Assembly (NCBI GenBank): GCA_002179805.1
Contig: NAVB01000981.1
Coordinates: forward strand, 1 to 37,705
Source of the DNA: Acanthamoeba lenticulata
Lineage: Eukaryota > Discosea > Longamoebia > Acanthamoebidae
DNA length: 37,705 bases
Reading direction: 5' to 3'
Both the position numbers and the translations under genes were made by a program. Positions 1,419 through 29,044 of this stretch are shown piece after piece. Within the stretch, counting starts at the first letter, position 1; every line of letters begins with the position of its first letter. A model generated the notes under the pieces. The model saw only the letters and a list, made by a program, of their open reading frames with translations, did not search any database and was not told the origin of the DNA.

Positions 1419-1699
1419 AGAGAGAGAAAGATGAAGTAATGAAGACAGGGAGGAAAAGAGAAAGCCATGTACATAAGCAGCCAAAAACCCAAGGGCAGAA
1501 ACCAAACACTCAACAAGAAGAAGGCGCTCTACCTGCCTGCGGCTGTGCGACGGGGAACGTGAAGAATTCGCAAAAAACTCCGTAGAGCCGGCTCGCTACG
1601 AACAGCCAGCCTGTTATCGTCAAATACAGCACTCTCGCTACACGACGTGGCGCACATCACCGTCTCGATCAGTATTCATTCTCTCAGTGTCGATCGAGA

Positions 1700-4840: not shown

Positions 4841-4974
4841 CCCACTCACCAAGCAGCTCAGCGCTGACGAAGTTCTGCATTCAATTATGATAAAAAAATA
4901 GTAATTTTTTATGTTTGTTTTGTTTTTTTTTTGCTTCACACGCCAGCATTTTCCCGCTCTTGGGCCCAAGCAAG

Positions 4975-7881
4975 ATGTTGGGACTGTTCTCGAAGCTCGT
5001 GAATTCGCCTGCGAAACCGAGCCCCTACGTCGGCGTAGCGGAGACCGAAGACTTTTAGTGCGTGTTCTCGCCTCATCGCGAACCATTTCATTGAGCTAAT
5101 CTCTTGGATCTCCTGCTTTTGAAGCTTCGAGGATTTGCTTTCCGCCTTGAATCAGGACAGCGTGCGCATTGTGGTATGCAACACTCCCTGTACAATCTTG
5201 CAGCCTCCGTCTCTGACCACGCTGCGTGCAGTTCTACCAAGAACGAGCTGGGCAGGGAAGCGCAGAGCTGCTCTTTGACTCCCATGCCGTGGCGAAGCCC
5301 CGCGAGGCGCCGCACAAGGGCAAAGAGCAACACAGCAGCAATGCCAGAGACAAACCAGCCGACGGCGTCGCTCCGCCACCACACAAGGTACGCTCACTAC
5401 GCTCGCGACGTGACCGTGACTGCGTCCTCGAATCGCCTCACCCATGAACAGAAACTGCCGCCGTCACTGGGCGAGATGATCTTCGGCACGATGCCCATGT
5501 CGCTCGAGGGCCGAAGCAGCAAGATGCACTTTCTTCCCTCACTCGACATCGTACGACCCACTTGTGCCACCCCCAGGCGACTTTTTCATCAGCGCATTCG
5601 CGTGCTATGCGCACGCTGACATGCGCATCATCATCATGATGACCTCTTCTTCTTCTTCTTGTCCTCGTCGGTAGGTGTTGATCTCGCGACTGGTCACCCT
5701 TCGCCTTCGCCAAGGCTTCAAGGTCACCTTTGCCGTCGGCGTTCTGTTTGATGTATATAACGCCTTCTTGTCCTTCTTCCTCCCGAGCGTGTCATCCTTG
5801 ATCGTTGTCTTCTCAACGTTACGAACTCAAACTCCATCGTTCTATCGGGCAGATCAAGTTTCGCGACTTTCTGCTGTGGCACTTTGGGAGCGGGGTGGAG
5901 CGGGAGGTGGACCACCTCCTTCGCCACTTCCTGCGCACCGTCATGTCGCCCGAATGCCCCGCCTCGCTCGAGGTGCGCCTCTTCCCCCTCTCCCCTCCCC
6001 CTTCTCTTCTTCTTCTCCTCCTCGAGAGCTCGGCCCTCACCGCCTCCCTCTCCATCGCCGGTATCATCATCATCAACCAGGCCTTTCAGGCAGAGCCCAA
6101 CTTGGTGCGGGCGGTCCACAACTTTCGAACAGCCTTCAATCGGCTGGTCTCGGCGCCGCGCCTCGACGTACGCCTCTCTCTTATCGCGCCTTCGTCTGGC
6201 GTGGCCCGCCGAGGCCCTGCGGTTATTGAAAGAGGCCTTTTGGGGGGACAGCGAGTGATGTGGGTCGACATCTTTGTGAAGGGCGCGGACTCGGAGCGAC
6301 GCGAGGCCGCCACCGACTTTCTGTGCACGCTCGAAGCCATGCGGGCGCGGTGGGACAGCCCGCGTAGCGGCTACTTCCTCTCGACTCTGGTCACTTCCCT
6401 CCTCGCCACCGATCTCTCGTGGACTCTCTCCTTCACTTCCTCTTCTTCTTCTTCTTCCTCTTCTCCATCATCTTCGTCTTCGTCTTCGTCGCCGTGGCTT
6501 CCATCGTCGCGCACGATCCTCACGGGCCTTGGGCCGTCGCACCTTCGACCGCTCCTCTCCCTCCTCTCCTATTTTGTGCGGCCACGCGGGCCCACGCTGC
6601 CGACGACGTCGCCTCTCGGGGGCCTCTTGTCCGCCCACGACGCCAGCGACGACGGCACCGCCATCGCTGACGACCGACCAACACCCACGACCCGAGAGTA
6701 CCGCCTCTCCCGTGCCTTAAATATTATGATATTATATTATTATTTTTTTTTAAAAAAAATATGTTAATTAATATTTGATCAATTTTTATTTGTGCTTCCC
6801 AAAAGGGAGCGACGAGAAAGCATTGGAGGAGCGTTGGAGGAGGTCTCGGTGGCCCACCTGAGTATGTTTCCGCTCGATCAGCCCGGCCCGGACCACCTGG
6901 GCTCCGGCCTCGACCTCAACAGCTCCATCCTCGCCGCCCGATGCGAGCTCGCGCAAACGCTCTTTGCCTCTTGCCTTCCCTACTACTCGGACCACTTTGG
7001 TACGCCCTATTGCCTCGCTGCGACCCCGCCTGGCCGAGTCTCACACTGTCGAGTGCGCTGCGTGCAGTGCTGATGGGGACGGGCAAGCCCGACTCGGAGG
7101 CCGACTTCACACAGCGCGTGCAGCACGACGTCAAGGCGCGAGCCGTGCAGGCCGGCCAGGCCTACTGCCTGGTCGCTGATGTGGCCAGCCTGCAATGCCA
7201 AGTCGTTTGCTGCGGGCACGATCCGTCCGCCAGCACGTCATCGTCGTCGTCATCGTCATCATCATCATCACCTTCTTCGCCTCCTCCGGTTTCCTCCTCC
7301 TCCACCGGCGTCGGTGCCCCGACGGCGGTGACCACCATGAGCGGCCGGCCGGCCGGTTGCTCTGACTTTGTGCGCGAGAGTCTCATCGCCACGGAGGGCC
7401 TCTGGAAGTCAGGCCTCCCACCAGAGGGCTGCGTCCAATACCTGGAGGACAGGTGCAGTCTCCTTAGTGTCTCTGTTTCATCATCATCATCATGTAGCCG
7501 ACCTTCTGATGCATCACACCCACATCATCACACAGATTGCAGCAGCTGCTGGAGCTGAGCCGCCTGCTGGGCGAGTATCTGGCTTCGTTGGACTCATCGT
7601 CAACCACCAGCAACGTTGGACAGGCCAAGGCGCCTTCGCCTCGGAAGCCGGCGCGGATCACGCTGGCCGAGGCGGCGAGCCGGCTCGGGCTGGCCGTGGC
7701 CGACGCCAACCTCCTGCTTTCGCTCACGCTCGTCGCCGCGCCACACGCCGCGCCGCAGCAGCAGGCGGACCCGCGGACGCCGGCGGCGCCAATGGGCTTC
7801 CCATCTCTGGCGGCCGATGGGATCGCACTCCAGCCGCCCTTCGCCGCGGCCCACTTCCACCGGCGCCTGCAGCAGCACTGA
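4975..7881 (+). CDS. FNIP: Folliculin-interacting protein (FNIP) homologue
   Basis: Eleven exons join with matching phases: 4975-5057, 5125-5173, 5232-5387, 5452-5550, 5675-5722, 5853-5972, 6081-6167, 6252-6697, 6806-6999, 7068-7452, 7536-7881; product 670 residues. Family hallmarks in order: N-terminal DSVRIVFYQE and ELLFDS; LGEMIFGTMPMSLEG (about 102), the FNIP N-domain signature; GYFLSTLVTSLLATDLSW then LLSLLSYFV (about 255-320); DHFVLMGTG (about 426) and AYCLVADV; GLPPEGCVQYLEDR joined to LQQLLELSRLLGEYL (about 542-571), the C-terminal signature. In other eukaryotes FNIP pairs with folliculin through longin and DENN domains at the lysosome, acts as GAP towards RagC/D and contacts AMPK, so a nutrient-sensing role is inferred. 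Two poly-Ser loops (6436-6490, 7240-7310) are low complexity. The sixth intron could end at 6080 or 6089. Confidence 0.88.
6698..6805 (+). other. AT-rich intron inside the FNIP gene
   Basis: This 108-nt intron has donor GTACCG and acceptor AAAAG. Its middle (6718-6790) is nearly pure A/T, in sharp contrast with the GC-rich exons around it. Phase (2 nt before, 1 nt after) restores an Arg-Glu-Glu junction and the family alignment, which supports removal. Confidence 0.6.
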
Positions 7882-8059: not shown

Positions 8060-9660
8060 ATGAGGGCAAGCGGGGTACTTGCTGAGCGCAAGATTACGCG
8101 CACGCTTTACAAAGCGCTGATGCATTCGGCACGCACTTTTGAAAGGGAACCAGGCCTCAAGGCGCTTCTCTCCCGAAACAGCAGCCCACTGATGAAGTCC
8201 ACGCCGACCGAGGAGGAATCTTCATGCTTAAGTGAGCTCTACGATGAGTTTCTGGGTTCGCAACAAGCGTGCTTCTATCACCCGGAACTGGCAACACAGT
8301 CCACCCTGCCAGACATCATCAGGCGACGCTTCCGCCAGCCCTTGCCCCCTTCACCTGAGGTACGTCGCGCAATACACCGTTATCGGCACTGTGGCCTCAT
8401 GCTGTACACGCGTGGGCGTGACGTTCCTGCCAGGCGAGGGAGGCCGCAGTGGACGCTGGCTTTCGCGCCCTCCAGCACCTGGAGGAGGCCACCGCCGTGG
8501 GGCGCTCTATCGGGCTCATCAACACGCCGGACAGGCCAATAGAACAGGAGAGGCAGGCACAGCCAGAGACTAAACGACCGCTGGCCCGAGCGGCCTCGAT
8601 GGCGGAGGTAGGCGCGGGCATGCTCCTCGTCCCGCACCCGCTGCTCATGGATCCCTTCTGGCATCACACGGTCATCCTCTTGCTCAACTATTCACCAGAG
8701 ACCGGGGCTTATGGGGCGGTCATCAACCGACCTGGTGCGGTCCCCCGCTTGCCCTCCAAGCCCTTTTTCGCCAGCTGTGCTGACGCTTGATGGCTGTTAT
8801 GTCGACAGAGAGCCGCTTCTTCATGAGGACGGCGGAAGATGGCCAAGACGACAAGGCCGACAAAAAGAGCGAGGGGACGACCATACCAGAGGCCTTTAAG
8901 ACGTTCTACGGTGGACCCGTGGCGTGGTCCGACCTCTACTGGCTGAGCCGAGCCGAACCGACAACACTGCCGCCTGCTCAAGAGGTCTACCCGGGCCTCT
9001 CTTACGGCCGCACCCACGCCATCTTTGACTGGGGCCGACCCAGCTGGCCCGACGCGAGCACCACGAGCCCAGCCGGCGAGCCGACAAAGTCAAGCACCGC
9101 CCAGGCAGAGGAGGAGAACGGCAAGAACGAAAAGGAGTCAGATGCGGGCCTAATCGTCTCGGTTGAGCAACGAACGGGGACCACGTTGACGGTGCGAATG
9201 TGGAGCAACCCCGACGTCAAGTGGTTCAACGGCGTCGCATCCTGGACGCCCGGCCAGCTCGAACGCGAGTTTCAGGAAGGTGAGATCGAGCGTCTCGCCA
9301 AATCAACTTCCACTCACGCGCGCGCGTGTTGGTGTGTCGTCGACTGCAATGTCTGCAGGGACGTGGTTTGTGGCGCGACCAGAAGGAACCGAGGTCGTGT
9401 TCCCGGACCCGCCGCTCTTCAGCACGGTGAGCCTGCCGCCCGGCGAAGTGGTCGACGTGGCCGACCGGGACAAGCAGACCCGCGTGTGGGCCGACCTGCT
9501 GCGCGCCATGGGCGGGCCCTATGAGCCGCTCGCGCGGTTTGGCTCCTTGCCCCGTCCCAAGAGCGACCAGAGCGAATTCACCGACGACATGGACATGGAG
9601 GACGACGAGGAGGAGGAGGAGACGACGGAGGAGGAGAAGCCAGGACGAAGGGACGACTAA
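8060..9660 (+). CDS. AlgH/UPF0301 (DUF179) protein with LYR-like N-terminal region
   Basis: Exons 8060-8359, 8434-8734, 8809-9279 and 9359-9660 join in phase to 457 residues. The AlgH core is clear: GAGMLLVPHPLLMDPFWHHT and VILLLNYSPETGAYGAVINR (about 160-200), FYGGPVAWSDLYWL (about 233), KWFNGVASWTPGQLEREFQE joined across the last intron to GTWFVARPEG (about 340-370), VWADLLRAMGG near the end. Bacterial AlgH proteins have no settled biochemical role; plant and protist versions are often organellar. The first 130 residues (LYKALMHSARTFE, LPDIIRRRFRQP, then a helix FRALQHLEE) resemble the Complex-1 LYR fold of mitochondrial iron-sulfur and respiratory assembly factors; this match is weaker. 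An acidic tail (DDMDMEDDEEEEE) closes the protein. A 60-residue Lys/Glu/Ser-rich insertion splits the AlgH domain. Confidence 0.85.
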
Positions 9661-10051: not shown

Positions 10052-13000
10052 ATGGGGGGTCTAAGCGCAAATCTGCTTGCTCTCCTCGCTCTCCTCCTTC
10101 TCTCTTTCTGCGCGTGCTCTATCCACGCCGGATGTAGTAATACGCCATGTTCTTCATACACCTTCCCGGGCCAGTTCGTTCAGAGTCTCCCCAACGGCGA
10201 GACGTACAACTCATACTACAGCTGGATCACCAGCAACATCTTCCTCGAAGGCCAACGAGTTAGCTCGACCTATGTCGCTCAGAACACCGCCTGGCCCAAC
10301 ATCGCTTTCCTCACCACCTCGCGGAGTTGCCACGTCAACGTCACCATGATCAGCACCAACGCCGGTAACCGCAACCAGATCGGCTGGTACCAGTTCAACA
10401 AGACGGCGCCCTCCGGCAGGAAGATCATCAACAGCACCGTTTTCACGATGTGGCCCGACGCGACGACAACCGTCGTCACCGGAACTTGGGGTTCAGGCGC
10501 TTGTATGGCGCAGGGTTCCACCGTGACCTTGGGGCCGTTCCCCTCGAGCGCGGGCGTTGGCTTTTACATGGATCCCGACGGAGTGTGTGTTACTTCAGCC
10601 CAGCGACTCTACAGCTTGGACGAAGAGAACATGAAGTACAACACCGCCAACTGGAACAACATCACCAGGTTGTACGGTCGAACGATTGCCGTCGTCAGGG
10701 TAACGATCCTCCCCCCTCTCCTTGACTCTCGTCTCAAAAAAGTCAGGTCCGCGTACTCATCGACGGTGGGCTTTCTCCCAGGACCCAACATCCGAATCTG
10801 TATTTTTTGGCTTCGACGACACTGTCACACAAGGCAGTGACATGGACTACAATGACGCCGTGGTCGCCGTCACGTCCAACTGTTCTCTCGACACGTCTAA
10901 GCTTCCCTGCTTCGCGACCTGCCGATTCTCCGCCCAGATCTTCAACGCGCTCACTTGTACTTGTAGCTGTCCCAACGCCACCGCGCAAGCGCTGTGTTTG
11001 TTTCCAAACACATGGGACGACACAACCTGCCAATGCCGCTTGCGTACGTAGGCTTAGCTCTGAGCGATCGCTTGCTTTTTTTTCTTTTTTTTTCTTTCTT
11101 TCTTTTGTTAACTGGACCTCGAGTGGCAACTTACCTCACCGTTCCCCGCAGCGAGTCCTTCTCCGTCGGTGACGCCCACCTCGACGGTCACCCCCACGGT
11201 GACACCCTCGTCCTCACGCTCTGTCACTCCGAGTCGCTCACCGACCAGGACCTTCACCCCATCTCGCACGCCCTCCGTCTCCGTCACTCCTTCAGTGTCC
11301 AACTCGCCCAGCTCCACCACGACCCCCACGATTAGCCGATCTCCCACACCCTCCCGGACGCCTTCCCGTACCGCAACCATCTCCATCACGCCATCTCGCT
11401 CGCCCACTGTAACACCAACAGTCACGCCAACTGTGACACGCTCTGTAACACCCACGCCTACGCCCACGGTCACGCCCACGGTGACGCGTACCGCATCGCC
11501 CACGGTGACACCCACAGTAACGCCCACGGCCTCGCCCAGTGTCACCCCGACCCGAACCCCAACGGTGACGCCGACGGTGACGCCAACCGTCACTCCTACC
11601 GTGACGCCAACTGTCACGCCCACAGTGACACCCACTGTCACGCCCTCTCCCTCGAGAACAGCCACAACCTCTCCCACTGTCACCCCCACCGCTACACCTT
11701 CAGTCACCCCAACGGCTTCTCCTACGGTCACGCCGACCGTGACGCCCACCGTAACGCCCACTGTGACGCCCACCGTAACGCCTTCCCGTACGCCGACAGT
11801 TACCCCCACGGTGACACCCACGGTGACGCCCACTGTCACGCCTACTGTCACGCCTTCACGGACGCCTACCGTGACGCCCACAGTGACTCCTACTGTCACG
11901 CCTACTGTCACGCCTTCACGGACACCCACTGTAACGCCAACTGTCACGCCGACGATGACGCCCTCGGTTACACCCTCGGTCACACCTACCGTGACGCCCA
12001 CAGTAACTCCCACGGTGACGCCCACGGTCACGCCCACTGTCACGTCGACAGTGACTCCCACGGTGACGCCTACTGTGACGCCGACTGTAACTCCCACGGT
12101 GACGCCTTCACGAACACCTACCGTAACGCCAACTGTCACGCCGACAGTCACGCCCACGGTTACCCCGACGGTTACACCCACCGTGACGCCCACCGTAACG
12201 CCTTCTCGTACGCCGACAGTTACACCCACGGTGACACCAACAGTTACACCTACAGTCACGCCCACGGTAACACCTACGGTGACGCCTACTGTGACGCCCA
12301 CCGTCACGCCCACTATCACGCGTACTGTAACGCCCACAGTTACGCCTACCGTAACACCAACAGTGACGCCGACCGTCACACCCACGGTGACGCCCACCGT
12401 AACGCCTTCCCGTACGCCGACAGTTACCCCCACGGTCACACCAACAGTTACACCTACAGTGACGCCCACGGTAACACCCACTGTGACGCCGACCGTCACG
12501 CCCACAGTTACGCCCACCGTCACACCAACAGTGACGCCGACCGTCACACCCACTGTGACGCCTTCACGAACACCTACCGTAACGCCAACTGTCACGCCGA
12601 CGATGACGCCCTCGACTACACCCACGGTAACACCGACAGTGACGCCCACGGTGACGCCCACCGTAACGCCTTCCCGTACGCCGACAGTTACGCCTACGGT
12701 GACACCTACCGTAACACCAACGGTCACGCCTACAGTAACGCCCACTGTGACGCCTTCACGAACACCTACCGTAACGCCAACTGTCACGCCGACAGTCACG
12801 CCCACGGTTACCCCGACGGTTACACCCACCGTGACGCCCACCGTAACGCCTTCTCGTACGCCGACAGTTACACCCACGGTGACACCAACAGTTACACCTA
12901 CAGTCACGCCCACGGTAACACCTACGGTGACGCCTACTGTGACGCCCACCGTCACACCCACTATCACGCGTACTGTAACGCCCACTGTCACGCCGACGGT

Positions 13001-16000
13001 GACGCCCACTGTGACACCTACCGTAACACCCACGGTCACGCCTAGTGTAACGCCCACTGTAACTCCCACCGTGACGCCCACCAGAACACCGACAGTCACA
13101 CCCACTGTTACGCCTTCACGGACGCCCACGGTAACTCCAACTGCCACGCCGACAATGACGCCCTCGGTTACACCAACGGTCACGCCGACGGTAACGCTCA
13201 CTGTAACACCCACGGTTACACCCACTGTGACGCCGACGGTCACGCCTACGGTGACGCCCACAGTGACGCCATCCGTTACGCCAACTGTAACACCGACAGT
13301 CACTCCTACCGTGACGCCGACCGTGACGCCCACAGTGACCCCGACGGTTACGCCGACAGTGACGCCGACAGTGACTCCTACCGTTACACCCACGGTTACT
13401 CCGACGGTGACTCCTACAGTGACACCAACAATTACACCCACAGTAACGCCCACCATTACTCCTTCCCGGACTCCTACAGTAACACCTACGGTGACGCCCA
13501 CTGTTACGCCCACAGTGACACCAACTGTTACGCCCACGGTAACGCCCACCGTGACGCCCACGGTGACGCCGACAGTTACACCCACTGCCACGCCCACGGT
13601 GACGCCCACTGTCACTCCTACCGTGACGCCGACGGTAACGCCCACCGTTACGCCCACTGTCACGCCGACAGTTACACCCACTGTTACGCCCACAGTGACG
13701 CCGACAGTGACGCCCACGGTGACCCCTACGGTGACGCCGACCGTGACACCGACAGTGACGCCCACGGTGACGCCCACGGTGACGCCGACTGTAACACCCA
13801 CAGTGACGCCCACCGTGACGCCTACCGTGACACCCACTGTTACGCCAACAGTAACTCCTACAGTGACGCCCACGGTAACACCCACCGTTACGCCCACCGT
13901 GACGCCCACCAGAACACCAACTGTTACTCCCACTGTCACGCCAACTGTCACCCCTACAGTCACACCAACGGTGACACCCACCGTTACGCCCACCGTCACA
14001 CCTACGGTCACCCCCACAGTGACCCCCACGGTGACGCCGACCGTCACACCCACTGTCACGCCCACGGTGACTCCTACCGTCACGCCCACGGTGACGCCTA
14101 CGGTTACCCCCACCGTCACTCCCACGGTCACGCCCACGGTGACTCCGACGGTGACGCCGACATTGACCCCTACTGTTACGCCGACTGTTACTCCCACGGT
14201 GACACCCACGGTGACGCCGACCGTCACGCCCACTGTGACGCCCACAGTCACACCTACCGTGACGCCGACCGTCACTCCCACTGTCACGCCGACCGTTACA
14301 CCTACAGTGACCCCGACTGTAACTCCCACGGTCACGCCGACCAGAACACCAACTGTCACGCCGACCGTAACGCCAACTGTGACGCCCACAGTGACCCCGA
14401 CTGTGACGCCTACTGTGACGCCCACGATCACGCCTACTGTGACGCCCACGGTTACGCCCACAGTCACCCCCACAGTGACGCCTACCGTCACGCCGACAGT
14501 CACGCCGACCGTCACTCCAACTGTGACACCTTCGGTAACGCCCACTGTGACGCCCACAGTTACCCCGACGGTGACGCCAACTGTTACGCCTACGGTTACG
14601 CCGACAGTCACGCCTACTGTCACGCCCACGGTCACGCCCACAGTCACGCCTACCGTCACGCCCACTGTCACACCCACTGTCACGCCCTCTATGACGCCTA
14701 CTGTAACGCCGACAGTGACGCCCACGGTGACGCCCACGTTGACGCCCACTGTTACACCGACGGTGACTCCCACAATAACGCCCACTGTCACTCCAACCGT
14801 CACACCAACGGTCACGCCCACTGTCACGCCTACTGTCACGCCGACTGTCACACCGACCGTCACACCAACAGTAACGCCCACTGTGACACCGACCGTCACA
14901 CCAACAGTGACGCCTACTGTCACGCCCACTGTGACACCGACCGTTACTCCCACAGTTACACCGACCGTCACGCCAACGGTCACTCCCACGGTGACGCCTA
15001 CGGTAACTCCCACGGTGACGCCTACGGTTACTCCAACTGTTACGCCGACTGTAACGCCTACTGTCACACCGACGGTGACGCCCACTGTTACCCCTACAGT
15101 GACGCCCACGGTCACCCCAACCGTGACACCGACGGTGACACCTACCGTCACACCGACGGTCACGCCAACCGTCACGCCTACCGTCACGCCGACAGTGACG
15201 CCCACTGTCACACCCACCTCAACGCCAACTGTTACACCCACTGTGACGCCTACGATGACACCTACGGTCACTCCCACTATTACTCCTACGGTGACGCCTA
15301 CAGTTTCCCCAACTGTTACTCCTACCGTTACACCCACTGTGACGCCCACAGTCACTCCTACTGTCACGCCGACAGTGACGCCCACGGTGACGCCTACACT
15401 GACGCCCACTGTAACTCCCACAGTGACGCCGACAGTGACGCCGACTGTTACACCCACCGTTACGCCGACCGTGACGCCTACTGTCACGCCCACTGTGACC
15501 CCTACCGTTACACCCACAGTGACGCCGACGGTGACGCCAACAGTGACACCAACGGTTACCCCCACGGTGACGCCGACCGTTACGCCCACAGTGACACCCA
15601 CGGTCACACCCACTGTGACGCCTACTGTAACGCCGACAGTGACACCTACCGTGACGCCCACAGTCACGCCAACAGTTACTCCTACCGTTACACCCACGGT
15701 CACGCCGACAGTTACGCCTACAATGACCCCGACTGTAACGCCCACGGTTACGCCCACTGTGACACCCACTGTCACTCCCACTGTCACGCCTACCGTGACG
15801 CCCACGGTCACGCCCACAGTGACGCCTACTGTAACGCCGACCATGACGCCCACAGTGACGCCCACGGTGACGCCAACAGTGACGCCGACAGTCACGCCCA
15901 CGGTCACGCCTACCGTGACGCCCACGGTAACACCTACGGTTACACCCACTGTATCCCCTACAGTGACGCCCACAGTGACGCCGACAGTCACTCCCACGGT

Positions 16001-19000
16001 GACGCCTACCGTGACGCCCACAGTGACGCCGACGGTGACGCCCACAGTGACCCCTACCGTGACGCCCACTGTCACTGTCACTGTGACGCCCACCGTCACG
16101 CCGACTGTCACTCCTACCGTGACGCCCACGGTCACGCCTTCAGTTACACCTACTGTAACGCCGACCGTGACGCCCACAGTCACGCCAACAGTCACACCAA
16201 CGGTGACACCTACTGTGACGCCCACGGTCACGCCTACCGTGACGCCCACGGTGACTCCCACCGTCACGCCCACCGTGACTCCGACTGTTACGCCCACAGT
16301 CACCCCTACGGTTACACCCACGGTGACCCCTACCGTGACCCCCACTGTAACGCCCACGATCACGCCAACAGTTACGCCGACCGTCACTCCTACTGTAACG
16401 CCTTCGGTGACGCCGACAGTAACGCCCACGGTTACGCCTACCGTGACGCCCACGGTCACACCAACGGTCACACCCACGGTTACGCCCACAGTGACACCAA
16501 CAGTTACACCGACGGTCACGCCCACGGTCACTCCCACTGTTACGCCTACGGTTACGCCCACAGTGACGCCCACTATCACACCTACCGTCACGCCTACGGT
16601 GACGCCTACAGTCACTCCCACGGTGACGCCCACTGTCACGCCTACCGTCACGCCTACGGTGACGCCCACAGTGACGCCGACTGTAACACCCACGGTCACG
16701 CCCACTGTCACGCCTACCGTTACGCCTACAGTGACACCTACGGTGACGCCTACAGTGACGCCCACGGTGACACCTACAGTCACGCCGACAGTCACGCCCA
16801 CGGTAACGCCTACCGTGACGCCCACTGTTACTCCCACGGTCACTCCTACAGTAACTCCAACTGTAACGCCAACTGTCTCACCTACCGTCACTCCGACTGT
16901 GACACCAACGGTGACGCCCACGGTTACGCCCACAATAACTCCGACTGTTACGCCAACTGTAACGCCAACCGTCACTCCCACTGTTACGCCCACGGTATCG
17001 CCCACAGTGACGCCCACTGTCACTCCAACGGTCACACCGACTGTGACACCTACAGTTACGCCAACTGTCACACCTACCGTCACGCCGACAGTGACCCCTA
17101 CCGGCACTCCAACTGTTACGCCCACGGTGACGCCCACAGTGACGCCAACAGTGACGCCGACAGTCACGCCTACTGTAACGCCAACTGTGACTCCTACGGT
17201 AACGCCCACCGTCACGCCCACAGTGACGCCCACGCAAACACCCAGTGTCACGCCTTCGGCCACGCAAACGGCTACGCCGACGGTTACACCCACAGAGACT
17301 CCAAGCGTTACTCCTTCCGTCACGCCAACGATGTCGGCAACAGTGCCGCCTACACCAACAGTCACGCCAACCTTGACGCCCACAGCCACACCGACGGTCA
17401 CGCCAACGGTGACGCCCACTGTCACGCCGACAGTCACGCCAACCGTCACGCCCACGGTTACACCCACCGTAACACCAACAGTGACGCCAACAGTCACACC
17501 TACCGTGACGCCCACGGTGACGCCGACTGTGACGCCCACTGTCACGCCGACGGTAACACCCACGTTGACGCCGACAGTCACGCCGACAGTCACGCCGACA
17601 GTGACACCGACAGTAACACCCACTGTGACGCCGTCAGTCACGCCAACAGTGACGCCCACTTTTACGCCGACTGTGACACCAACAGTGACCCCCACGGTCA
17701 CACCCACGGGGACGCCCACTGTTACTCCCACCGTGACGCCTACTGTGACGCCCACCGTCACACCCACCGTCACGCCCACGGTCACACCAACAGTGACGCC
17801 CACAGTCACCCCCACGGTTACGCCCACGGTCTCCCCAACGGTGACACCCACTGTCACACCGACAGTGACGCCGACCGTCACGCCAACAGTGACGCCGACT
17901 GTCACACCCACGTTGACACCCACGGTCACGCCCACCGTTACTCCAACAGTGACACCGACCGTGACGCCGACTGTGACACCTACGGTCACGCCCACAGTGA
18001 CACCGACAGTGACGCCCACAGTCACGCCCACTGTTACGCCCACAGTGACGCCCACAGTTACGCCCACTGTCACTCCGACGGTAACGCCTACAGTGACGCC
18101 GACGGTGACGCCCACTGTCACTCCGACGGTAACGCCTACAGTGACACCGACAGTGACGCCGACAGTTACGCCCACTGTCACTCCGACGGTAACGCCTACA
18201 GTGACGCCGACGGTGACGCCCACTGTTACGCCGACTGCGACGCCTACCGTGACACCGACAGTGACGCCCACGGTCACTCCCACCGTCACGCCCACTGTAA
18301 CGCCGACTGTCACGCCCACAGTGACGCCCACCGTAACACCAACAGTCACCCCCACGGTTACTCCAACTGTTACGCCTACACCGACGGTGACGCCCACTGC
18401 AACCTCCACTGTGACGCCCACGGTTACGCCTACCGTTACGCCCACCGTCACACCTACGGTTACTCCTACTGTGACGCCCACAGTGACATCCACTGTTACG
18501 CCTACCGTGACGCCCACAGTGACGCCCACGGTCACTCCTACCGTGACCCCGATGGTAACCCCAACTGTCACGCCTACAGTAACGCCAACCGTCACTCCTA
18601 CGGTCACACCGACAGTGACACCGACAGTGACACCGACAGTGACGCCCACTGTGACGCCATCAGTCACGCCTACTGTTACCCCCACCGTAACACCTACGGT
18701 CACACCAACAGTGACACCCACGGCTACCCCTACTGAGACGCCCTCAGCGACTCCCAGCATCACGCCGACCGTAACGCCCACGGTCACGCCGACCGTGTCA
18801 CCTACCGTCACCCCCACGGTGACACCGACCGTAACGCCCACGGTCACGCCGACAGTCACGCCCACGGTCACGCCGACGCAAACGCCCACGGTCACACCCT
18901 CAGTCACTCCGTCCGTGACACCTACAGTTACACCGACTGAGACGCCAAGCCCGACGCCTTCGGTCACACCTACCATGACGCCAACAGTCACGCCCACGGT

Positions 19001-22000
19001 GACGCCTACCGTAACGCCCACGGTCACGCCGACCGTGTCACCTACCGTCACGCCCACGGTGACGCCGACTGTTACGCCTAGCGTTTCGCCTGCTGTAACG
19101 CCTACCGTGACTCCTACCGTGACACCCACGGTGACGCCCACTGTGACTCCCACCGTTACGCCCACGGCCACGCCAACGGTCACACCCACGGTCACGCCAT
19201 CAGTTACGCCCAGTGTGACGCCCACAATAACACCCACCGTGACTCCTACAGTGACACCCACGGTTACTCCGACCGTGACCCCTTCGGTAACGCCAACTGT
19301 CACGCCCACAGTGACGCCCACGGCGACGCCGACTGTCAGTCCTACTGTCACACCGACGGTGACGCCGACGGTGACGCCCACAGTCACACCGACGGTGACC
19401 CCTACCGTGACGCCCACTGTAACGCCCACCGTGACCCCCACGGTCACGCCCAGTGTTACTCCCACGGTTACGCCTACCGAGACACCATCAGTTACGCCAA
19501 CCGTTACGCCCACTGTGACGCCCACGGTCACACCTACCGTGACGCCCACGGCGACGCCCACCGTGACGCCCACTGTCACGCCCACAGTAACGCCCACTGT
19601 TACGCCCACGGTGACGCCCACCGTGACGCCCACTGTCACACCCACTGTGACGCCCACGGTGACGCCTACGGTGACACCCACCGTGACGCCCACTGTGACG
19701 CCCACTGTGACGCCCACTGTGACGCCTACTGTCACACCCACAGTAACGCCCACTGTGACTCCCACGGTGACACCTTCACAGACGCCGACAGTAACACCGA
19801 CCGTGACACCGACGGTTACGCCCACTGTCACGCCCACAGTCACCCCTACTGTGACGCCCACGGTTACGCCAACCGTGACGCCCAGTTTCACACCGACAGT
19901 CACACCCACACTGACGCCTACGGTCTCGCCTACTGTGACGCCATCAGTGACACCTACCGTGACGCCAACAGTTACACCAACAGTCACTCCGACTGTCACA
20001 CCCACGGTCACGCCAACTGTGACGCCTACCATCACGCCCACAGTGACGCCCACGGTCACTCCTACGGTGACCCCGACGGTAACACCAACTGTCACGCCTA
20101 CGGCAACGCCTACAGTAACGCCAACCGTCACGCCCACGGCGACTCCTACCGTCACACCGACAGTGACGCCCACTGTGACGCCATCAGTCACGCCTACAGT
20201 TACCCCCACTGCGACACCGACAGTTACCCCCACCGTAACACCTACGATCACGCCAACGGTGACACCCACGGCTACTCCTACTGAGACGCCCTCAGCGACT
20301 CCCAGTGTCACGCCTACTGTATCACCGACGGTCACACCCACAGTTACCCCGACGGTGACGCCCACGGTGACGCCCTCGGCCACGCCTTCAGTGTCGCCAA
20401 CGGTGACGCCCACAGTCTCACCGACAGTTACTCCGACTGTGACGCCGACAGTGACACCCACGGTGACGCCCACAGTCACGCCCACGGTGACGCCCACGGT
20501 GACGCCCAGCGTGACTCCATCAGTAACACCGACAGTTACTCCGACAGTCACGCCGACCGTCACTCCTACAGTAACTCCTACCGTAACGCCCACGGTGACT
20601 CCATCCATGACGCCGACAGTCACGCCAACCGTCACGCCCACGGTCACGCCCACGGCTTCACCGACAGTGACGCCCACTGTCACACCGACGGTAACGCCTA
20701 CAGTGACGCCCACGGTCACGCCCACGGTTACGCCGACTGCGACACCTACCGTGACACCGACTGTTACGCCGACTGTCACACCGACAGTGACGCCCACCGT
20801 CACTCCCACGGTGACGCCGACTGTCACGCCCACAGTGACGCCTACCGTGACGCCCACTGTTACACCTACGGTGACGCCTACCGTAACGCCCACTGTTACG
20901 CCGACGGTGACTCCGACCGTTACACCCACGGTGACGCCTACTGTGACGCCGACTGTAACGCCGACGGTGACACCTACCGTGACGCCCACCGTCACGCCAA
21001 CAGTTACGCCGACCATCACTCCTACAGTGACGCCTTCGGTGACGCCCACCGTTACGCCCACAGTGACGTCTACCGTGACGCCCACGGTCACGCCCACGGT
21101 CACGCCGACAGTAACGCCCACGGTTACGCCAACGGTAACGCCTACGGTCACACCCACGGTGACGCCGACGGTGACGCCTACAGTGACGCCTACCGTGACG
21201 CCCACGGTAACACCTACGGTCACACCCACCGTTACTCCTACGGTGACGCCCACCGTGACGCCAACAGTTACACCGACGGTCACGCCCACCGTTACTCCCA
21301 CGGTGACACCTACGGTCACGCCTACGGTCACGCCCACAGTGACGCCCACTGTCACACTTACCGTGACGCCTACGGTGACGCCTACAGTCACACCCACGGT
21401 TACCCCAACTGTGACACCCACAGTGACGCCGACTGTAACGCCCACCGTGACGCCCACTGTGACGCCTAGCGTTACGCCAACCGTGACGCCCACGGTCACT
21501 CCCACAGTCACGCCAACTGTCTCACCTACCGTAATTCCGACTGTTACGCCCACCGTTACTCCAACAGTGACACCGACCGCGACGCCGACTGTCACACCCT
21601 CGTTGACTCCCACAGTCACGCCCACCGTTACTCCAACAGTGACACCGACCGTGACGCCGACTGTCACGCCGACTGTGACACCTACGGTAACGCCCACAGT
21701 CACACCGACAGTGACGCCCACTGTCACTCCCACAGTTACGCCCACTGTCACTCCGACGGTAACGCCCACGGTCACACCCACTGTTACGCCGACTGCGACG
21801 CCGACCGTGACACCGACAGTATCACCCACGGTTACTACTACGGTGACCCCGACGGTAACACCAACTGTAACGCCTACTGTCACGCCAAGTGTGACGCCCA
21901 CGGTGACTCCCACGGTCTCGCCCACTGTGACGCCATCAGTGACGCCGACTGTTACCCCCACTGTGACACCCTCGGCGACTCCCAGTGTCACGCCTACGGT

Positions 22001-25000
22001 CACGCCGACCATGACGCCGACCGTAACGCCCACTGTGACGCCGACAGTGACGCCCACGGTTACGCCTACCGTGACCCCTTCGGTAACGCCAACTGTCACG
22101 CCTACTGTCACGCCAACCGTCACGCCCACGGTCACTCCTACGGTCACGCCAACCGTGACGCCCACCGTGACGCCTACCGTGACTACCACTGTCACGCCCT
22201 CACCAACAGTAACGCCTACCGTTACACCGACCGTGACGCCAACCTTAACACCTACGGTGACGCCGACGCAAACGCCCAGCGTCACGCCGTCGGTCACGCC
22301 GACAGTCACGCCCAGTTTGACGCCCACGCTGACCCCGACGGTCACGCCCACAGTCACACCGACAGTGACCCCGACCGTTACGCCCACTGTGACACCGTCA
22401 GTTACACCGACAGTGACGCCCACGGTCACGCCCACAATCACGCCCACAGGTACACCGACGGTGACTCCCACCGTGACGCCCACAGTCACGCCCACTGTGA
22501 CGTCTACGGTCACTCCTACCGTGACACCAACAGTGACACCGACGGTGACGCCCACTGTGACGCCCACTGTGACGCCCACGGTCACGCCTACTGTCACGCC
22601 GACCGTAACGCCTACTGTGACGCCCACTGTTACGCCCACGGTCACGCCCACGGTCACGCCTACTGTCACGACCACGGTCACGCCCACTGCCACACCGACG
22701 GTGACACCCACGGTGACGTCCACGGTGACGCCCACCGCTACACCGACAGTGACGCCGTCTGTAACGCCCACGGTGACGCCTACGGTCACACCAACAGTCA
22801 CACCAACAGTAACGCCCACGGGTACGCCCACAGTTATGCCTACAGTTACTCCTACTGTTACTCCTACCGTCACGCCCTCGGTGACGTCCACTGTCACACC
22901 AACGGTTACTCCCACTGTAACTCCTACCGTAACACCGACCGTTACCCCCACCGTTACACCTACCATCACGCCTAGTGTTACACCAACTTTGACGCCCACG
23001 GTCACGCCCACTGTGACGCCTACCGTTACACCCACGGTGACGCCAACGGTGACGCCAACAGCGACACCAACGGTTACGCCCACGGTGACGCCGACCGTAA
23101 CGCCCACAGTTACGCCCACGGAGACGCCTACTGCAACACCGACAGTGACTCCAACAGTGACGCCCACTGTGACGCCCACGGTGACGCCTACTGTAACTCC
23201 CACAGTGACCCCTACGGTGACACCTACCGTGACGCCCACCGTGACGCCCACTGTGACGCCCACTGTGACGCCAACGGTGACTCCCACTGTGACGCCCACT
23301 GTCACTCCCACCGTCACGCCTACCGTCACGCCCACGGTGACACCCACTGTGACCCCCACAGTTACACCCACCGTCACTCCTACTGTGACGCCGACCGTAA
23401 CTCCTACTGTAACGCCCACCGTCACGCCTACTGTGACGCCCACTGTGACACCGACGGTGACGCCGACCGTGACGCCCACGGTCACGCCCACTGTGACGCC
23501 CACTGTGACGCCAACGGTGACGCCCACCGTGACGCCCACGGTGACGCCTACCGTCACGCCCACGGTCACGCCCACCGTAACGCCCACTGTGACGCCCACT
23601 GTCACTCCGACGGTAACGCCCACTGTGACACCGACCGTGACGCCGACGGTCACGCCGACGGTGACGCCCACTGTGACGCCAACGGTGACGCCTACTGTGA
23701 CGCCCACTGTCACGCCCACTGTGACGCCAACGGTGACGCCCACTGTGACGCCCACTGTCACGCCTACCGTCACGCCCACGGTGACGCCCTCCGTCACGCC
23801 TACTGTGACGCCCACTGTGACACCGACCGTGACGCCGACGGTCACGCCTACCGTCACGCCCACTGTGACGCCCACTGTGACGCCCACTGTCACGCCCACT
23901 GTCACGCCTACCGTCATGCCCACTGTGACGCCCACTGTGACGCCCACCGTCACACCCACTGTGACGCCCACGGTCACTCCCACCGTCACGCCCACGGTTA
24001 CGCCCACCGTCACGCCTACTGTGACGCCCACTGTGACACCAACCGTGACGCCGACTGTGACGCCTACGGTGACGCCCACGGCCACGCCCACGGTGACACC
24101 CACTGTTACGCCCACGGTCACGCCTACTGTTACGCCCACTGTGACCCCCACTGTGACCCCGACGGTGACGCCCACAGTCACTCCTACCGTGACACTCACA
24201 GTAACGCCCACAGTGACGCCCACTGTCACTCCCACTGTCACACCGACAGTAACGCCAACGGTTGCTCCCACCAGAACGCCTACCGTGACGCCTACCGTCA
24301 CTCCCTCGGTAACGACCACAGTAACGCCAACAGTTACGCCTACCGTTACACCCACGGTCACTCCCACGGTCACGCCGACAGTTACGCCTACAGTGACGCC
24401 GACTGTAACTCCCACGGTGACCCCCACAGTGACCCCCACAGTGACGCCCACCGTTACGCCCACGGTCACACCTACGGTCACACCTACGGTCACGCCTACC
24501 GTCACGCCCACAGTGACGCCAACCGTCACTCCGACCGTCACGCCGACGGTAACGCCCACGGTGACGCCCACAGTGACGCCCACGATCACGCCTACTGTGA
24601 CGCCCACTGTGACGCCCACGGTCACGGCGACAGTAACGCCGACAGTAACGCCGACAGTAACGCCTACTGTAACGCCTACGGTCACGCCAACAGTGACGCC
24701 CACCGTGACGCCCACCGTGACGCCCACGGTCACGGCGACAGTAACGCCTACTGTAACGCCTACGGTCACGCCAACAGTGACGCCCACCGTGACGCCCACC
24801 GTCACGCCGACAGTAACGCCGACAGTAACGCCTACTGTAACGCCTACTGTAACGCCTACGGTGACGCCCACGGTCACGCCAACAGTGACGCCTACGGTGA
24901 CGCCCACGGTCACACCCACCGTTACTCCAACGGTGACACCGACCGTGACGCCGACTGTCACGGCGACTGTTACACCTACGGTCACGCCCACAGTGACGCC

Positions 25001-26540
25001 GACTGTCACACCGACGGTAACGCCTACAGTGACGCCCACGGTCACGCCAACAGTGACGCCGACTGTCACACCAACAGTCACACCGACAGTAACGCCAACG
25101 GTTACTCCCACCAGAACGCCGACCGTGACGCCTACGGTCACACCCACTGCCACGCCCACGGTGACGCCCACAGTTACACCAACAGTGACACCCACGGTGA
25201 CTCCCACCAGAACGCCGACCGTGACACCTACCGTCACTCCCACTATCACACCGACAGTAACGCCAACGGTGCCTCCCACCAGAACGCCGACCGTGACGCC
25301 TACCGTTACGCCCACGGTTACGCCCACAGTGACGCCGACTGTCACTCCTACTGTAACACCAACTGTGACGCCCAGTGTGACTCCCACTGTTACGCCAACT
25401 GTCACACCGACAGTCACTCCAACAGTGACGCCCACTGTTACGCCGACGGTGACGCCTACGGTCACACCCACTGTCACGCCCACGGTTACGCCCACAGCCA
25501 CACCAACAGTGACGCCGACCGTGACGCCCACCGTCACGCCTTCCGAGACGCCCTCCGTCACACCCACCGTAACTCCATCCAGTACAACATCACCTACTCC
25601 GTCGATCTCCGAGTCTCCCTCATCTACATCATCCCCTACGTCGTCCATCTCGTTGTCACCAACTGCTTCCATCTCCCTTTCTCCATCTCCGAGTCTCACT
25701 CCGGGTCTCTCTCCTTCCTCGTCGCACTCGAGGACGCCCACCCCTTCGCGCACTCCGACGCGCACTCCTTCTTCCACACCGTCGAACTCGCGCTCAGCGA
25801 CTCCCTCGATCTCGCGGTCGCCCACATCCTCAATCACACCCACGGCCACGCGGACCTCTACCCCAACCCCTTCAGTGAGCCGAACATCCTCGCCCACGTC
25901 ATCGCCCTCTAAATCGGCCTCACTATCACCGTCCGCGCCCAACTCGCCAACCTCTTCGCCGTCCGTGGGCACTTCGCCGACTGCGACCGTGACACCCACC
26001 CCGTCGATCTCTCGTACCGCGACCCCGTCCCCATCTGCTTCGGCGTCTGCAACGACCACCCCGTCAACGACCGCCTCAAGCTCTCGGACACCCTCAACAA
26101 CCCCGACCAACTCAGCAACAAGTTCTCCCACCAGAAGTCCCTCGACCAGCCCTCGCTTCGTCAACGGAACCGGAGCCGCCGACGGTGGTGGTGGCATCGA
26201 CGTGGGCATAATCGCAGCGGGCGTAGCCATTCCACTGGCTCTGGCGGCAGTCGCAGGACTTGGTGCGGCGGCGGCGCTCCTGCTCTGGCGACGCAGGGCT
26301 GCGGCGACCCCCACGCTTGACCCGACAGTGGTGGACGTCGCCAGCTTGGGCAACGTCAGTGTGTCTCCCATCTACGAGACCCGCACAACTACACACAAGA
26401 ATGAGCTCTACGCTGGAGACAACGGAGAGGAGCCTGACGATGTGTTCTTCTTCAGCAATCCCTCGCCTGGCGGCGACATGGGCGGTGCAGGCCGAGATGC
26501 ATCCTACCAAGCCCACGCCATGACCTGGGACAATGTGTGA
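10052..26540 (+). CDS. Giant type I membrane protein: DUF4114-like head, (TPTV)n stalk, TM, short tail
   Basis: Exons 10052-10699, 10782-11043 and 11152-26540 join in phase to 5,432 residues. Order: signal peptide (1-26, core [19 protein letters not shown]); ectodomain with NQIGWYQFN, several N-glycosylation sequons (NVT, NKT, NST, NIT), then [19 protein letters not shown], the pattern of the extracellular DUF4114 family; Cys-rich CTCSCPN and WDDTTCQC segment (about 255-303); about 4,700 residues of nearly pure Thr-Pro-Thr-Val (about 387-5109); Ser/Thr/Pro linker with FVNGTG; transmembrane helix ([17 protein letters not shown], about 5318-5345) stopped by WRRR; 80-residue tail with [18 protein letters not shown] and [11 protein letters not shown]. 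Inferred role: cell-surface adhesin or receptor whose ligand-binding head is held far from the membrane on a stiff, O-glycosylated rod. No Cys is seen in the stalk. Array length in an assembly may be inexact. Confidence 0.85.
12131..12990 (+). repeat. Higher-order duplication inside the stalk array (648-bp offset)
   Basis: A block of roughly 200 bp beginning with AACTGTCACGCCGACAGTCA at 12131 recurs at 12779 with almost every synonymous third base the same, including the TPSRTP module and the rare TPTITRTV variant. The offset is 648 bp, exactly 54 units, so the copy kept frame. Neighbouring units differ far more, so this is a recent duplication or conversion. Confidence 0.75.
24615..24880 (+). 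repeat. Local higher-order repeat marked by rare TATV variants
   Basis: The uncommon GTCACGGCGACAGTAACG variant (Pro to Ala) occurs at 24621 and again at 24729, 108 bp or nine units apart, with the following units nearly identical. This indicates a local in-frame duplication. Confidence 0.65.
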
Positions 26541-26589: not shown

Positions 26590-27569
26590 TACCATTTTTT
26601 TTTTTTTTATTCAGCCTCCGGGCGCTCCTTTGCCGGGGCTTGACCACTATCGTGGCTTCCGGGTCTAGCATGATGGGGTGGGGTGACGTAAGTTGTGCCA
26701 ACCAGCGGCGGCAACGCGGTTGCATCGCTCCTGGAGGCCATTGTTGGTTGGTTGGTTCGCGTGTAGCCTGCTTGGCGAAGGCTGTTCATCCATTGCTTGT
26801 GCAGGACATGCTTAGGGATGAAGAGTTCGGGTCTGGTGACATCCTGAACATCAAGGACGGCCCTTGTTATCAAGGTCCGTCGGCGTTGATGGGGTATGGT
26901 GGCCATTGGCAGCCCCCTAGTTGGGGCACAGGTAGCGAAGACTGACGTCGAGATTCTGCGCTTCGTTGTTCGGTGGCGGAGAAGGGGAACGACACCATCC
27001 TGTCGACCAGGTTTCAACCAGTCAGTGACTTGGTGTGCGTGTGTGAAGCCGGCGGCCCTGGCTACCGAGCGGGCTGGCGTTGATTCCTTATCGGAGATTC
27101 TAGCCATTGCAAAGAGTGTGCTGAGTGGTAGGTTCGGCCAGTCTGTTCGCAGTAAGCTCTCCATTCCGTGGGCCGCCATGGTTGCGGCGAGCTAATTCGC
27201 CAGGCTTCTGACCTCGGCTGTGGGTGTTGGAAGGGGTCGCGGTCGTGGTAGACCAGGCGCCTCATGTCCAACAAGGTGATGGCAGTGGTGGTGGCGCATT
27301 CCGTGTCCGGGCCGTTCAGGAAGTGATACATGCCGTGCACCAGTCGCGCCTTGCAGGACGCTTGGAGGTCGGTGATGTTGAATCCGACGTGCTCCTTTGG
27401 GAGGCACAGCACTTGGTGGTCAACCCTTGCGCTGGCGGAGGGCAGAGGACGGCTCTGGTCGCTGCTATCTGGACGCGTTTTGTCCAATCGACCGGGAAGG
27501 GGCAGACGTCCGCCGCATAGGTGATCTTGCCGAAAACGTCGTAGTTCACCAAGTTGGATTTGGCTAACC
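26590..27569 (-). mobile_element. 5'-truncated LINE-like (non-LTR) retrotransposon remnant
   Basis: On the minus strand, from 27569 downwards, frames in succession read [19 protein letters not shown] and VLCLPKEHVGFNITDLQ followed by SCKARLVHGMYHFLNG. These resemble the region after the reverse transcriptase in LINE ORF2 proteins (K-x-x-Y-x-A-x-V-x-P, then LCxPKxxGGxxIxDL with conserved helices). Frame changes between these pieces, plus stops, show it is dead. A run of 14 T at 26595-26608 on the plus strand is a poly(A) tail for a minus-strand element, as expected at a LINE 3' end. The 5' end abuts directly on TPTV repeat sequence at about 27570. No catalytic YxDD motif is present, consistent with 5' truncation. 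No target-site duplication was recognised. Confidence 0.55.
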
Positions 27570-29044
27570 ATGACACCAACTGTCACACCGACAGTCACGC
27601 CCACGGGGTCACCTACCGTGACACCGTCCGTTACACCTTCGGGGACGCCTACGATCACGCCCACGGCCACTCCCACTCGACCAGTAACACCCACAGTCAC
27701 GCCTACCGTTACTCCCACCATAACTCCAACCGTAACGCCCACAGTGACTCCCACTGTGAGTCGATCTGTAACGCCCACGGTCACTCCTACAGTCACGCCT
27801 ACGGTCACGCCAACAGTCGCTCCCACTGTGACTGCAACGGTCACTCCTACCGCTTCACCGACGGTGACGCCCACAGTCACGCCCACTGTCACGCCGACCG
27901 TCACACGCACTGTGACTCCCACAGTGACGCCCACAGCCACGCCCACGGTGACCCCAACAGTGACGCCCACAGTTACGCCGCCGGTGACGCCCACAGTAAC
28001 TCCTACCTTTACACCCACGGTCACTCCGACGGTGACGCCCACGGTAACACCAACAGTGACACCCACCGTTACGCCTTCCCGACGCCGACAGTAACACCCA
28101 CAGTGACGCCGACGGTGACGCCCACAGTGACACCCACGGTGACGCCTTCTGTTACGCCTACGGTCACACCTACAGTCACGCCTACCGTCACGCCAACAGT
28201 GACACCGACCGTCACTCCGACTGTAACGCCGATGGTAACGCCCACGGTGACGCCCAAAATCACACCCACAGGTACATCGACGGTGACTCCCACCGTGACG
28301 CCCACAGTCACGCCCACTGTGACGTCTACGGTCACTTCTACCGTGACACCAACAGTGACACCGACGGTGACACCCAAGGTGACGCCCACGGTCACGCCTA
28401 CTGTCACGCCGACCGTAACGCCTACTGTGACGCCCACTGTGACGCGTACCGTCGCGCCCACGGTGACACCTACCGTCACGTCCACGGCTACACCTACGGT
28501 TACGCCGACTGTTACGCCCACTGTGACTCCCACTGTGACAACGACGGTGACGCCGACCGTGACGCCTACCTTCACGCCCACTGTGACTCCGACAGTAACA
28601 CCAGTGACGCCCACAGTCATGCCATCGTCAACGCCGACTTAACGCCAACCGCGACTCCCTCCCGGACGCCCACGGTGACACCTACAGTCACGTCCACGGT
28701 TACACCTACGGTTACGCCGACTGTTACGCCCACTGTGTCTCCTTCAAGGACGCCCGGCCATCCCGTTGGCCCTGGTCGCTGTGGCGGGCATGCTCGCGGC
28801 CGCCGCGCTCCTGATGTGGCGCCGCAGGGTCAACAAACCGCCCACCGTGTCGCCTTGGGGCGTGGACGCGACGGGCCAGGAGATGGTCACGACGTCGCCC
28901 ATCTACGAATCGCGGACCACCACGCACATGAACGAGCTCTATGCGGGCGAGGACGGCGATGTGCCGGACAGCTTCTTCTTCACAAACCCCGCGCCCGACG
29001 ACTCAGGCAACACCGCACACACCCTGCCGTGGAACCGCGTCTAA
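27570..29044 (+). pseudogene. Truncated, frameshifted copy of the giant TPTV stalk gene (3' part)
   Basis: Starts abruptly inside TPTV repeats and ends with the same membrane anchor and tail as the giant protein: IPLALVAVAGMLAAAALLMW, RRR, SPIYESRTTTHMNELYAG and FFFTNPAPDD, stop at 29042-29044. There is no signal peptide or head. The frame is broken near 28080 (one base lost in a TPSRTP module), by a TAA near 28640 followed by a frame change, and again near 28755, where the stalk runs out of frame into the membrane segment and the linker is missing. About 28260-28440 is nearly identical, synonymous bases included, to 22440-22630 of the giant gene. It is therefore a duplicate of that gene rather than an independent array. 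Confidence 0.75.

Follow-up and report, generated by a model that had tools for sequence, protein, structure and literature searches.

A candidate mannose-binding-protein relative on a giant mucin-like Thr-Pro-Thr-Val stalk in Acanthamoeba lenticulata

Among the major adhesins of Acanthamoeba is the mannose-binding protein (MBP), which also serves as a diagnostic target. The literature cited here describes two forms, MBP1 and MBP2; one further uncharacterised protein is named beside them (PMC11934332). MBP1 (AcMBP-1, 833 aa; Q6J288/AAT37864), apparently specific to Acanthamoeba groups 2 and 3, is defined by a DUF4114-type head, a series of CXCXC repeats, a transmembrane (TM) helix and a tail with two NPLF motifs (PMC9692275), whereas MBP2 (360 aa; L8GXW7) has a DUF4114 head and usually a single CXCXC. 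Calcium and mannose binding is assigned to the motif ED(xx)GxDxDYND (PMC9692275). For the DUF4114-type domain of AcMBP-1, binding to mannose-agarose and to human corneal cells was shown; it was named the mannose-binding domain, with the bacterial two-calcium lectin BclA as structural match (PMC11934332), and the MBP tail has been called integrin-like with a potential talin-binding motif (PMC12686525). Here we analyse a gene in a 37,705-nt stretch of A. lenticulata DNA (NAVB01000981.1; hereafter the window), which is one complete contig (C730) of the 48.48-Mb, 1,825-contig genome assembly and contains no N. On balance, we read its product as a single-pass membrane lectin, related to MBP and carried on a long-reach mucin-like stalk, that would catch mannosylated prey.

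The gene has three exons on the + strand and encodes 5,432 residues (543.7 kDa). A first-pass annotation of the window had proposed one gene running from a signal peptide through a DUF4114-type head, a Cys-rich knot and about 4,700 TPTV residues to a TM helix and tail, with the whole stalk in a single 15.4-kb exon; our three-exon model gives the same protein length, with exon 3 as one open frame.

10052..10699, + strand: exon 1, coding for the signal peptide (residues 1-26, by eye) and the beginning of the DUF4114-type head (27-216)
10700..10781, + strand: intron 1, GT-AG, 82 nt; both splice points agree with a relative, P0001
10782..11043, + strand: exon 2, end of the head with the calcium/mannose-type loop, then the Cys-rich knot with a single CXCXC (CTCSC)
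11044..11151, + strand: intron 2, GT-AG; the alternative 11048-11155 is equally possible and leaves protein length unchanged
11152..26540, + strand: exon 3, 15,389 nt, one open frame with stalk, transmembrane helix, cytosolic tail and stop
11439..25541, + strand: core of the Thr-Pro-Thr-Val stalk (residues about 400-5100), with exact TPTV in 958 of the 1,145 units counted
12087..12985, + strand: recent internal duplication, 12087-12337 matching 12735-12985 at 98.8%
25542..26153, + strand: membrane-proximal Ser/Thr/Pro-rich spacer, resembling the spacer of several paralogues
26196..26288, + strand: transmembrane helix, by eye, followed by RRR
26289..26537, + strand: cytosolic tail, with SPIYE at residue 5375 and NELYAG at 5387

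In the protein, the signal peptide (1-26) is followed by the head (27-~250), the Cys-rich knot (to 303), the stalk (~305-5300), the TM helix (~5319-5349) and the tail (to 5432); signal peptide and helix were called by eye on the translation and the tail alignment. The open frame survives many GT/AG pairs (products of 5,376-5,453 aa), and the introns listed were chosen as those that keep the head continuous. P0001 reads ...AVVR, intron, then DPTQQVFFGFDD, and exon 1 of the window gene likewise ends in ...AVVR, which supports both sides of intron 1; this support covers intron 1 alone, and the P0001 reading runs through the intron. At two other loci, C436 and C1728, head, stalk, TM helix and tail all lie unspliced in one open frame (1,923 and 1,857 codons), so the stalked-head architecture is independent of the splice model chosen here.

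A Pfam scan of the 303-residue window head returned PF13448 (DUF4114; E 1e-5, 26.8 bits against a cut-off of 27) and a sub-threshold DUF6157, with no CBM49 and no PA14. We assign an N-terminal DUF4114 domain by homology, the score itself being borderline. With the window head as query, the genome yielded 21 matches spread over 15 loci. Of these, C928 and C918/C208 are organised as MBP1 has been described (a head of DUF4114 type, then many CXCXC repeats, a TM helix and a tail with NPLF and NPMF), and the comparison with MBP1 was made through them. The window head is 32-35% identical to these MBP1-type heads, and the view of it as an orphan was abandoned on the strength of that homology. Heads chosen from seven of the 15 loci were aligned; they share 37 invariant columns, including the head cysteines and the loop DYND. 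Residues 27-303 of the window protein hold 14 Cys and six N-glycan sequons, and the exon 2 loop GSDMDYND fits the GxDxDYND core of the published calcium/mannose motif (PMC9692275). In a tree of 14 of the 15 heads (C167 gene 1, which has no exon 1, was omitted), the window head forms a group with those of C1109, C31, C166, C167 gene 2 and C1450, supported at 93/98 and separate from the MBP1-type heads; its branch is long (0.5) and drew a long-branch warning, so its exact place is unsure. The tree label "TPstalk" also took in C621, whose head falls among those of MBP1 type and whose frame, as read, shows no TM tail.

The other end of the protein is related to MBP1 as well. The window tail aligns with DNPLFHGNQVEMTNPMFAG of an MBP1-type protein, with SPIY and NELY at the NPLF and NPMF columns. 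The window-type motif or a near form is kept in 8 of 10 aligned tails, C436 having SPLYE...NPTYE; the 10 rows were chosen and include neither C994 nor C70, in whose tails the motifs are of NPFF type. That both ends are homologous and the middle has been replaced most clearly marks the window protein as an MBP relative with another spacer. The window protein thus shares with MBP1 a signal peptide, an N-terminal DUF4114-type head with its calcium/mannose loop and adjoining CXCXC, a single C-terminal TM helix and two NPx[Y/F]-like tail sites (PMC9692275, PMC11934332). MBP1 spaces its head from the membrane with many Cys-rich repeats, whereas the window protein has one CXCXC and then ~4,800 Thr/Pro/Val/Ser residues, and its tail has SPIY and NELY in place of the two NPLF. 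It is not MBP1 proper and in the CXCXC feature lies nearer to MBP2, which, however, is without Cys-rich repeats or a cytosolic domain and is too short to accommodate a long stalk.

The window gene belongs to a family. Besides it and the MBP1-type genes, 10 head-bearing loci, some perhaps alleles, carry Thr/Pro/Ser stalks. Stalked frames, measured stop to stop, run to 1,654 codons at C1450, 1,988 at C31, 2,627 at C1109 and 3,335 in C167 gene 1, the last truncated on its 5' side by the edge of the contig; C994 and C70 have short stalks, in frames of about 350 and 500 codons. Three more stalked frames, at C815 (2,608 codons), C804 (2,028, beginning at the contig start) and C1117 (3,796, by its length near the contig start), had no match in the window-head search. 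Stalks thus range from ~250 residues (C994, by eye) to ~4,800, and the window gene is the longest intact-reading member in this assembly. Three pairs, C436/C1728, C1109/C31 and C918/C208, may be alleles, being about 88-98% alike over their longest matched stretches. A search of the genome with the window tail gave 32 matches, of which those at about 1e-17 or stronger were taken further. No giant relative was found by its tail at E 1e-3 among 2,916 candidates in the protein collection, and the viral contigs searched held no relative; 36 and 85 pattern matches in bacterial and archaeal genomes were not confirmed by either alignment, which gives no verdict on the published bacterial origin.

Several paralogues carry additional modules. 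Between head and stalk, C167 gene 2 (L036) has DUF642-like modules (PF04862, E 1e-10), and C1109 and C31 (L034, L035) have a repeated module of ~110 residues (GCSGFTISGLTPSLTFNVNYNGYYVWDG...) with no Pfam match. In C166 and C167 gene 1 (L038, L043), an MBP-like head is followed by CBM49 (PF09478, E 4e-10, C167 copy scanned), which makes this type a membrane-anchored protein with two carbohydrate-binding-type domains. CBM49 occurs in the Luke lectins, cyst-wall proteins that bind cellulose and chitin (PMC6541295), and its presence in these relatives would suit a tether that joins the plasma membrane to wall polymers during encystation. For the window protein we give such a role a small chance: its head region has no CBM49 and the remainder is stalk, the Luke lectins are described as having no predicted TM helix (PMC6541295), and the published MBP head bound no cyst walls, nor did mannose block wall formation (PMC11934332). 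The first-pass suggestion of a cyst-wall component is weakened by the same binding result and reopened for the CBM49 paralogues only.

C167 also bears on whether the window gene is real at its full length. At C167:1-10305 (L043, L036), a C166-type head exon and CBM49 lead into a stalk end and a tail that resemble those of the window gene at 95-98%; the likeness spans the last ~1.5 kb (95-97.8%) and stops ~50 nt past the stop codon, pointing either to recombination through the stalk or to mis-assembly. Crossing-over or mis-joining inside arrays therefore happens, and contigs C166 and C804 end within arrays, as would be expected if the window gene were itself a chimera, one gene's head joined through the array to another's tail with a stalk length that is not real. 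That explanation is improbable given that 97% of array 51-mers are unique, leaving little to mis-join on, that frame and register are kept across 14 kb, and that a second copy of the 5' flank, looked for in the assembly, was not found. Further along the same contig, at C167:12256-31200, gene 2 (L036, L058, L051) has a head-side frame open past 20650 and a tail-side frame of 3,653 codons in a different frame; it might exceed the window gene in size, given an intron or an assembly error between the two frames, or else be broken.

Thr, Pro, Val and Ser make up a stretch of 5,002 of the 5,432 residues of the window protein, with Thr+Ser at 50.5%, so that a long Thr/Ser/Pro-rich, presumably extracellular stretch of mucin type adjoins the TM helix. 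Together with the MBP-related head, this supports the surface-type architecture of binding head and mucin-like stalk proposed at first pass. The stalk had also been called pure TPTV; it follows the motif at about 94%, with 263 of 4,680 core residues (5.6%, all windows counted) departing from it, 96 of them Thr to Ser. With such a composition the stalk could itself be the working part, a protective or spacing brush of the glycocalyx, with the head in a minor anchoring role that serves cross-linking or self-association, and the wide variation of stalk lengths and extra modules among paralogues, with stalk chemistry kept, would agree with this. The conservation of the head cysteines and loop DYND in the seven aligned heads speaks against a minor role for the head, and binding of the MBP head to trophozoites was not observed (PMC11934332), which argues against self-association; we consider this explanation unlikely.

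At the DNA level, the repeat is largely blurred. Thr codons in residues 401-5090 are ACG (1041), ACA (497), ACT (410) and ACC (298), and Pro and Val each use all four codons. Third codon positions carry 1.49-1.99 bits and are nearly random, against 0-0.45 bits at first and second positions, the two zero values being fixed by construction because units were picked on Pro. Third-position agreement of units 1-399 apart is close to that of random pairs (0.326), with 0.316 between neighbours and 0.348 at the highest; selection against repetition between neighbouring units was considered and dropped, the difference between 0.316 and 0.326 being too small. In the array, 97.2% of 51-mers and 98.4% of 100-mers are unique. 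The longest near-identical internal copy is 251 nt (98.8%), so copy number is least sure near 12.1-13.0 kb. A repeat produced by recent slippage was likewise rejected, though not wholly: third positions are near random, yet 25-mers are more repeated than in codon shuffles. The array grew by duplications, some recent and most long blurred. The genome has 3,174 instances of its 29-base TPTV pattern, 2,866 on one strand and 308 on the other; 786 of them fall in the window gene.

The length of the open frame was set aside as evidence. A single base change cannot turn any ACN, CCN or GTN codon into a stop, which makes an open frame weak evidence, and the antisense strand is open by construction: an antisense frame of 5,087 codons (window 11108-26371, - strand) is a by-product of the motif, whose complement cannot form a stop in that frame, and not a gene. 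More telling is the register, which jumps only four times in 14,071 nt, each time by 6 nt and never changing frame. A second TPTV array downstream (27545-29044, + strand) is frame-broken, with two frame-changing jumps in 1,171 nt and mismatches at 6.3% of constrained positions against 2.9% in the stalk.

The stalk is under purifying selection as protein. Over stretches alignable at 90% or more, a choice that affects both classes of change and takes in some head, module or tail codons where these are in frame, dN/dS was 0.070 for window/C167 gene 1 (966 codons), 0.199 for window/C1450 (160), 0.046 for window/C804 (584), 0.073 for C804/C1117 (707), 0.208 for C436/C1728 (1,258), 0.19 for C1109/C31 (1,800), 0.048 for C167 gene 1/C166 (929) and 0.049 for the internal duplicates of the window gene (369). 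Other settings gave a usable alignment in 3 of 7 pairs and none in 4: C436/C1728 at 0.215 and C1109/C31 at 0.115 (stalks alone, 0.229 and 0.106), and C167 gene 1/C166, for which 96 stalk codons gave 0.122. When 40-residue windows scoring below 30 are dropped (2 of 117), Thr departs at 100 of 2,300 positions, Pro at 24 of 1,150 and Val at 117 of 1,150. Of the Thr departures 92 are to Ser, against 16.4% expected from single-base changes with transitions weighted twofold (binomial 3e-62, the departures not being fully independent). The hydroxyl is thus kept, as O-glycan acceptors would require, and the stalk may be densely O-glycosylated. Random third positions, unique 51-mers, the intact frame, low dN/dS and the Thr to Ser bias together indicate that the protein, and not the DNA repeat, is what is kept. 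A selfish coding repeat, in which the stalk would be a by-product of expansion without selected function, might be suspected from the local duplications and from the unequal frames of the possible alleles C31 and C1109 (1,988 and 2,627 codons). It is barely credible beside dN/dS values of 0.05-0.23 in every comparison except one of 70 codons, Thr changes that preserve the hydroxyl, and near-random synonymous sites where recent slippage would have left DNA repeats.

The gene structure, the homology of head and tail and the existence of the family are plain from the sequences. Several observations weigh against the reading of the window protein as an MBP-related prey-catching lectin. The window head lies 0.2 bits under the curated DUF4114 cut-off, and its exon 2 alone (25.6 bits) was the only one of six genome matches not over it; the C436 and C918 heads likewise score below (22.0 and 22.1). 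The full ED(xx)GxDxDYND motif is absent, the window having DD for ED and four residues before the G where the published motif has two. A profile of the seven heads, searched against solved structures, gave as its best row an unrelated neuropilin-VEGF chain (E 0.29). In the tail, site 1 has SP instead of NP and site 2 is NELY instead of NPxY, which leaves adaptor or talin binding unsure, and a Talin_middle search returned no match, though inconclusively. In the stalk, 16.1% of array 25-mers are non-unique against 4.4% in 100 shuffles of codons within amino-acid context; with this residual duplication, part of the homogeneity may be recent copying. The 70-codon comparison of C167 gene 1 with C166, under the other settings, gave a dN/dS of 0.459.

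Yeast flocculins have a Thr-rich repeat stalk with a glycosylphosphatidylinositol or cell-wall anchor and repeats at the DNA level. In Flo1 and Flo5, an N-terminal calcium-dependent mannose lectin is carried on an unstructured stalk (PMC6308950), and they are analogous to the window protein, not homologous: their head is PA14 (PMC6308950), which the window lacks, and the window protein has a TM helix, a signalling-type tail and codon-scrambled units. The bacterial two-calcium lectin LecB/PA-IIL has an acidic loop, EDGTDNDYND, with which the calcium loop of the seven-head profile lines up, at E values (0.59-0.82) below significance and in chains of about 115 residues; the window head on its own gave zero matches to solved structures at E 1. 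TIM-4 also holds its binding head out on a mucin domain, but the head is unrelated and the mucin domain has 179 residues (PMC10550946), the window stalk being ~26 times longer and almost wholly one tetrapeptide. Among the matches listed in the Acanthamoeba and wider literature, subscription papers and preprints aside and as far as the portions available go, an MBP-headed protein on a mucin-like stalk was not described.

At 0.25-0.31 nm per residue, the stalk has a contour length of 1.2-1.5 micrometres. Treated as a worm-like chain, with 8-41.5 nm for the persistence length from TIM-3/TIM-4 mucin simulations that their authors call preliminary (PMC10550946), it has a free root-mean-square end-to-end distance of ~140-340 nm. 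This is far below the contour length, so the stalk would be a long flexible tether and not a rigid rod, reaching its full length in this model only under tension or crowding. The 1.4-micrometre rod of the first-pass annotation stands as a contour length, but not as a rod or a free extent.

In the working that we propose for an MBP-related lectin of this kind, the disulfide-rich spacer of MBP1 would have been replaced by the giant mucin-like stalk, and the head would bind mannose-bearing surfaces (bacteria, yeasts or other prey) through its calcium loop. O-glycosylation of the Thr/Ser-dense stalk would stiffen and extend it, holding the head clear of shorter MBPs and the glycocalyx, and the tail, with its two NPx[Y/F]-like sites, would couple the engaged tether to the endocytic apparatus or to machinery of talin type, allowing prey to be drawn in. 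At C98, and again at C130, matches to FERM_f0 and I/LWEQ sit on the same strand with ~8 kb between them, the arrangement expected of a talin gene; talin coupling of the window tail may be envisaged. Sugar binding, surface display and prey capture are what we infer for the window protein, and the adhesin or prey-sensor role suggested at first pass is supported. Paralogues with graded stalk lengths would then form a set of tethers differing in reach. A broader and more tentative proposal is that one MBP-related head family is borne on stalks of ~250-~4,800 residues, some with CBM49 or DUF642 and most with integrin-like tails, such that reach depends on the length of the stalk, scrambled codons protect the stalk from slippage yet leave it a zone of crossover where heads and tails are swapped (as in C167 gene 1), and tension is passed inward as in integrin adhesion.

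Elsewhere in the window, the frame-broken array at 27545-29044 has a tail-like end at 28751-29014, 60% identical to the window tail, and the window-head search found no match before it; it is likely the remains of a neighbouring family member. A direct repeat of about 420 nt (31877-32288 and 32817-33236) is 81% alike. Three neighbours lie upstream of the stalked gene:

64-1041, + strand: MORN repeats
5802-7555, + strand: folliculin-interacting protein middle domain and C-terminal domain (just under cut-off)
8784-9521, + strand: AlgH-like (DUF179), a sub-cut-off match

In the stalk, selection on the protein has preserved a coding repeat whose repetition in the DNA is largely blurred, and this blurring also helps the array to assemble. 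The family offers a natural series of stalk lengths for testing receptor reach and phagocytosis. If our reading is true, a mucin-stalked, MBP-headed set with stalks of up to ~4,800 residues would change the picture of prey capture and adhesion in these amoebae.

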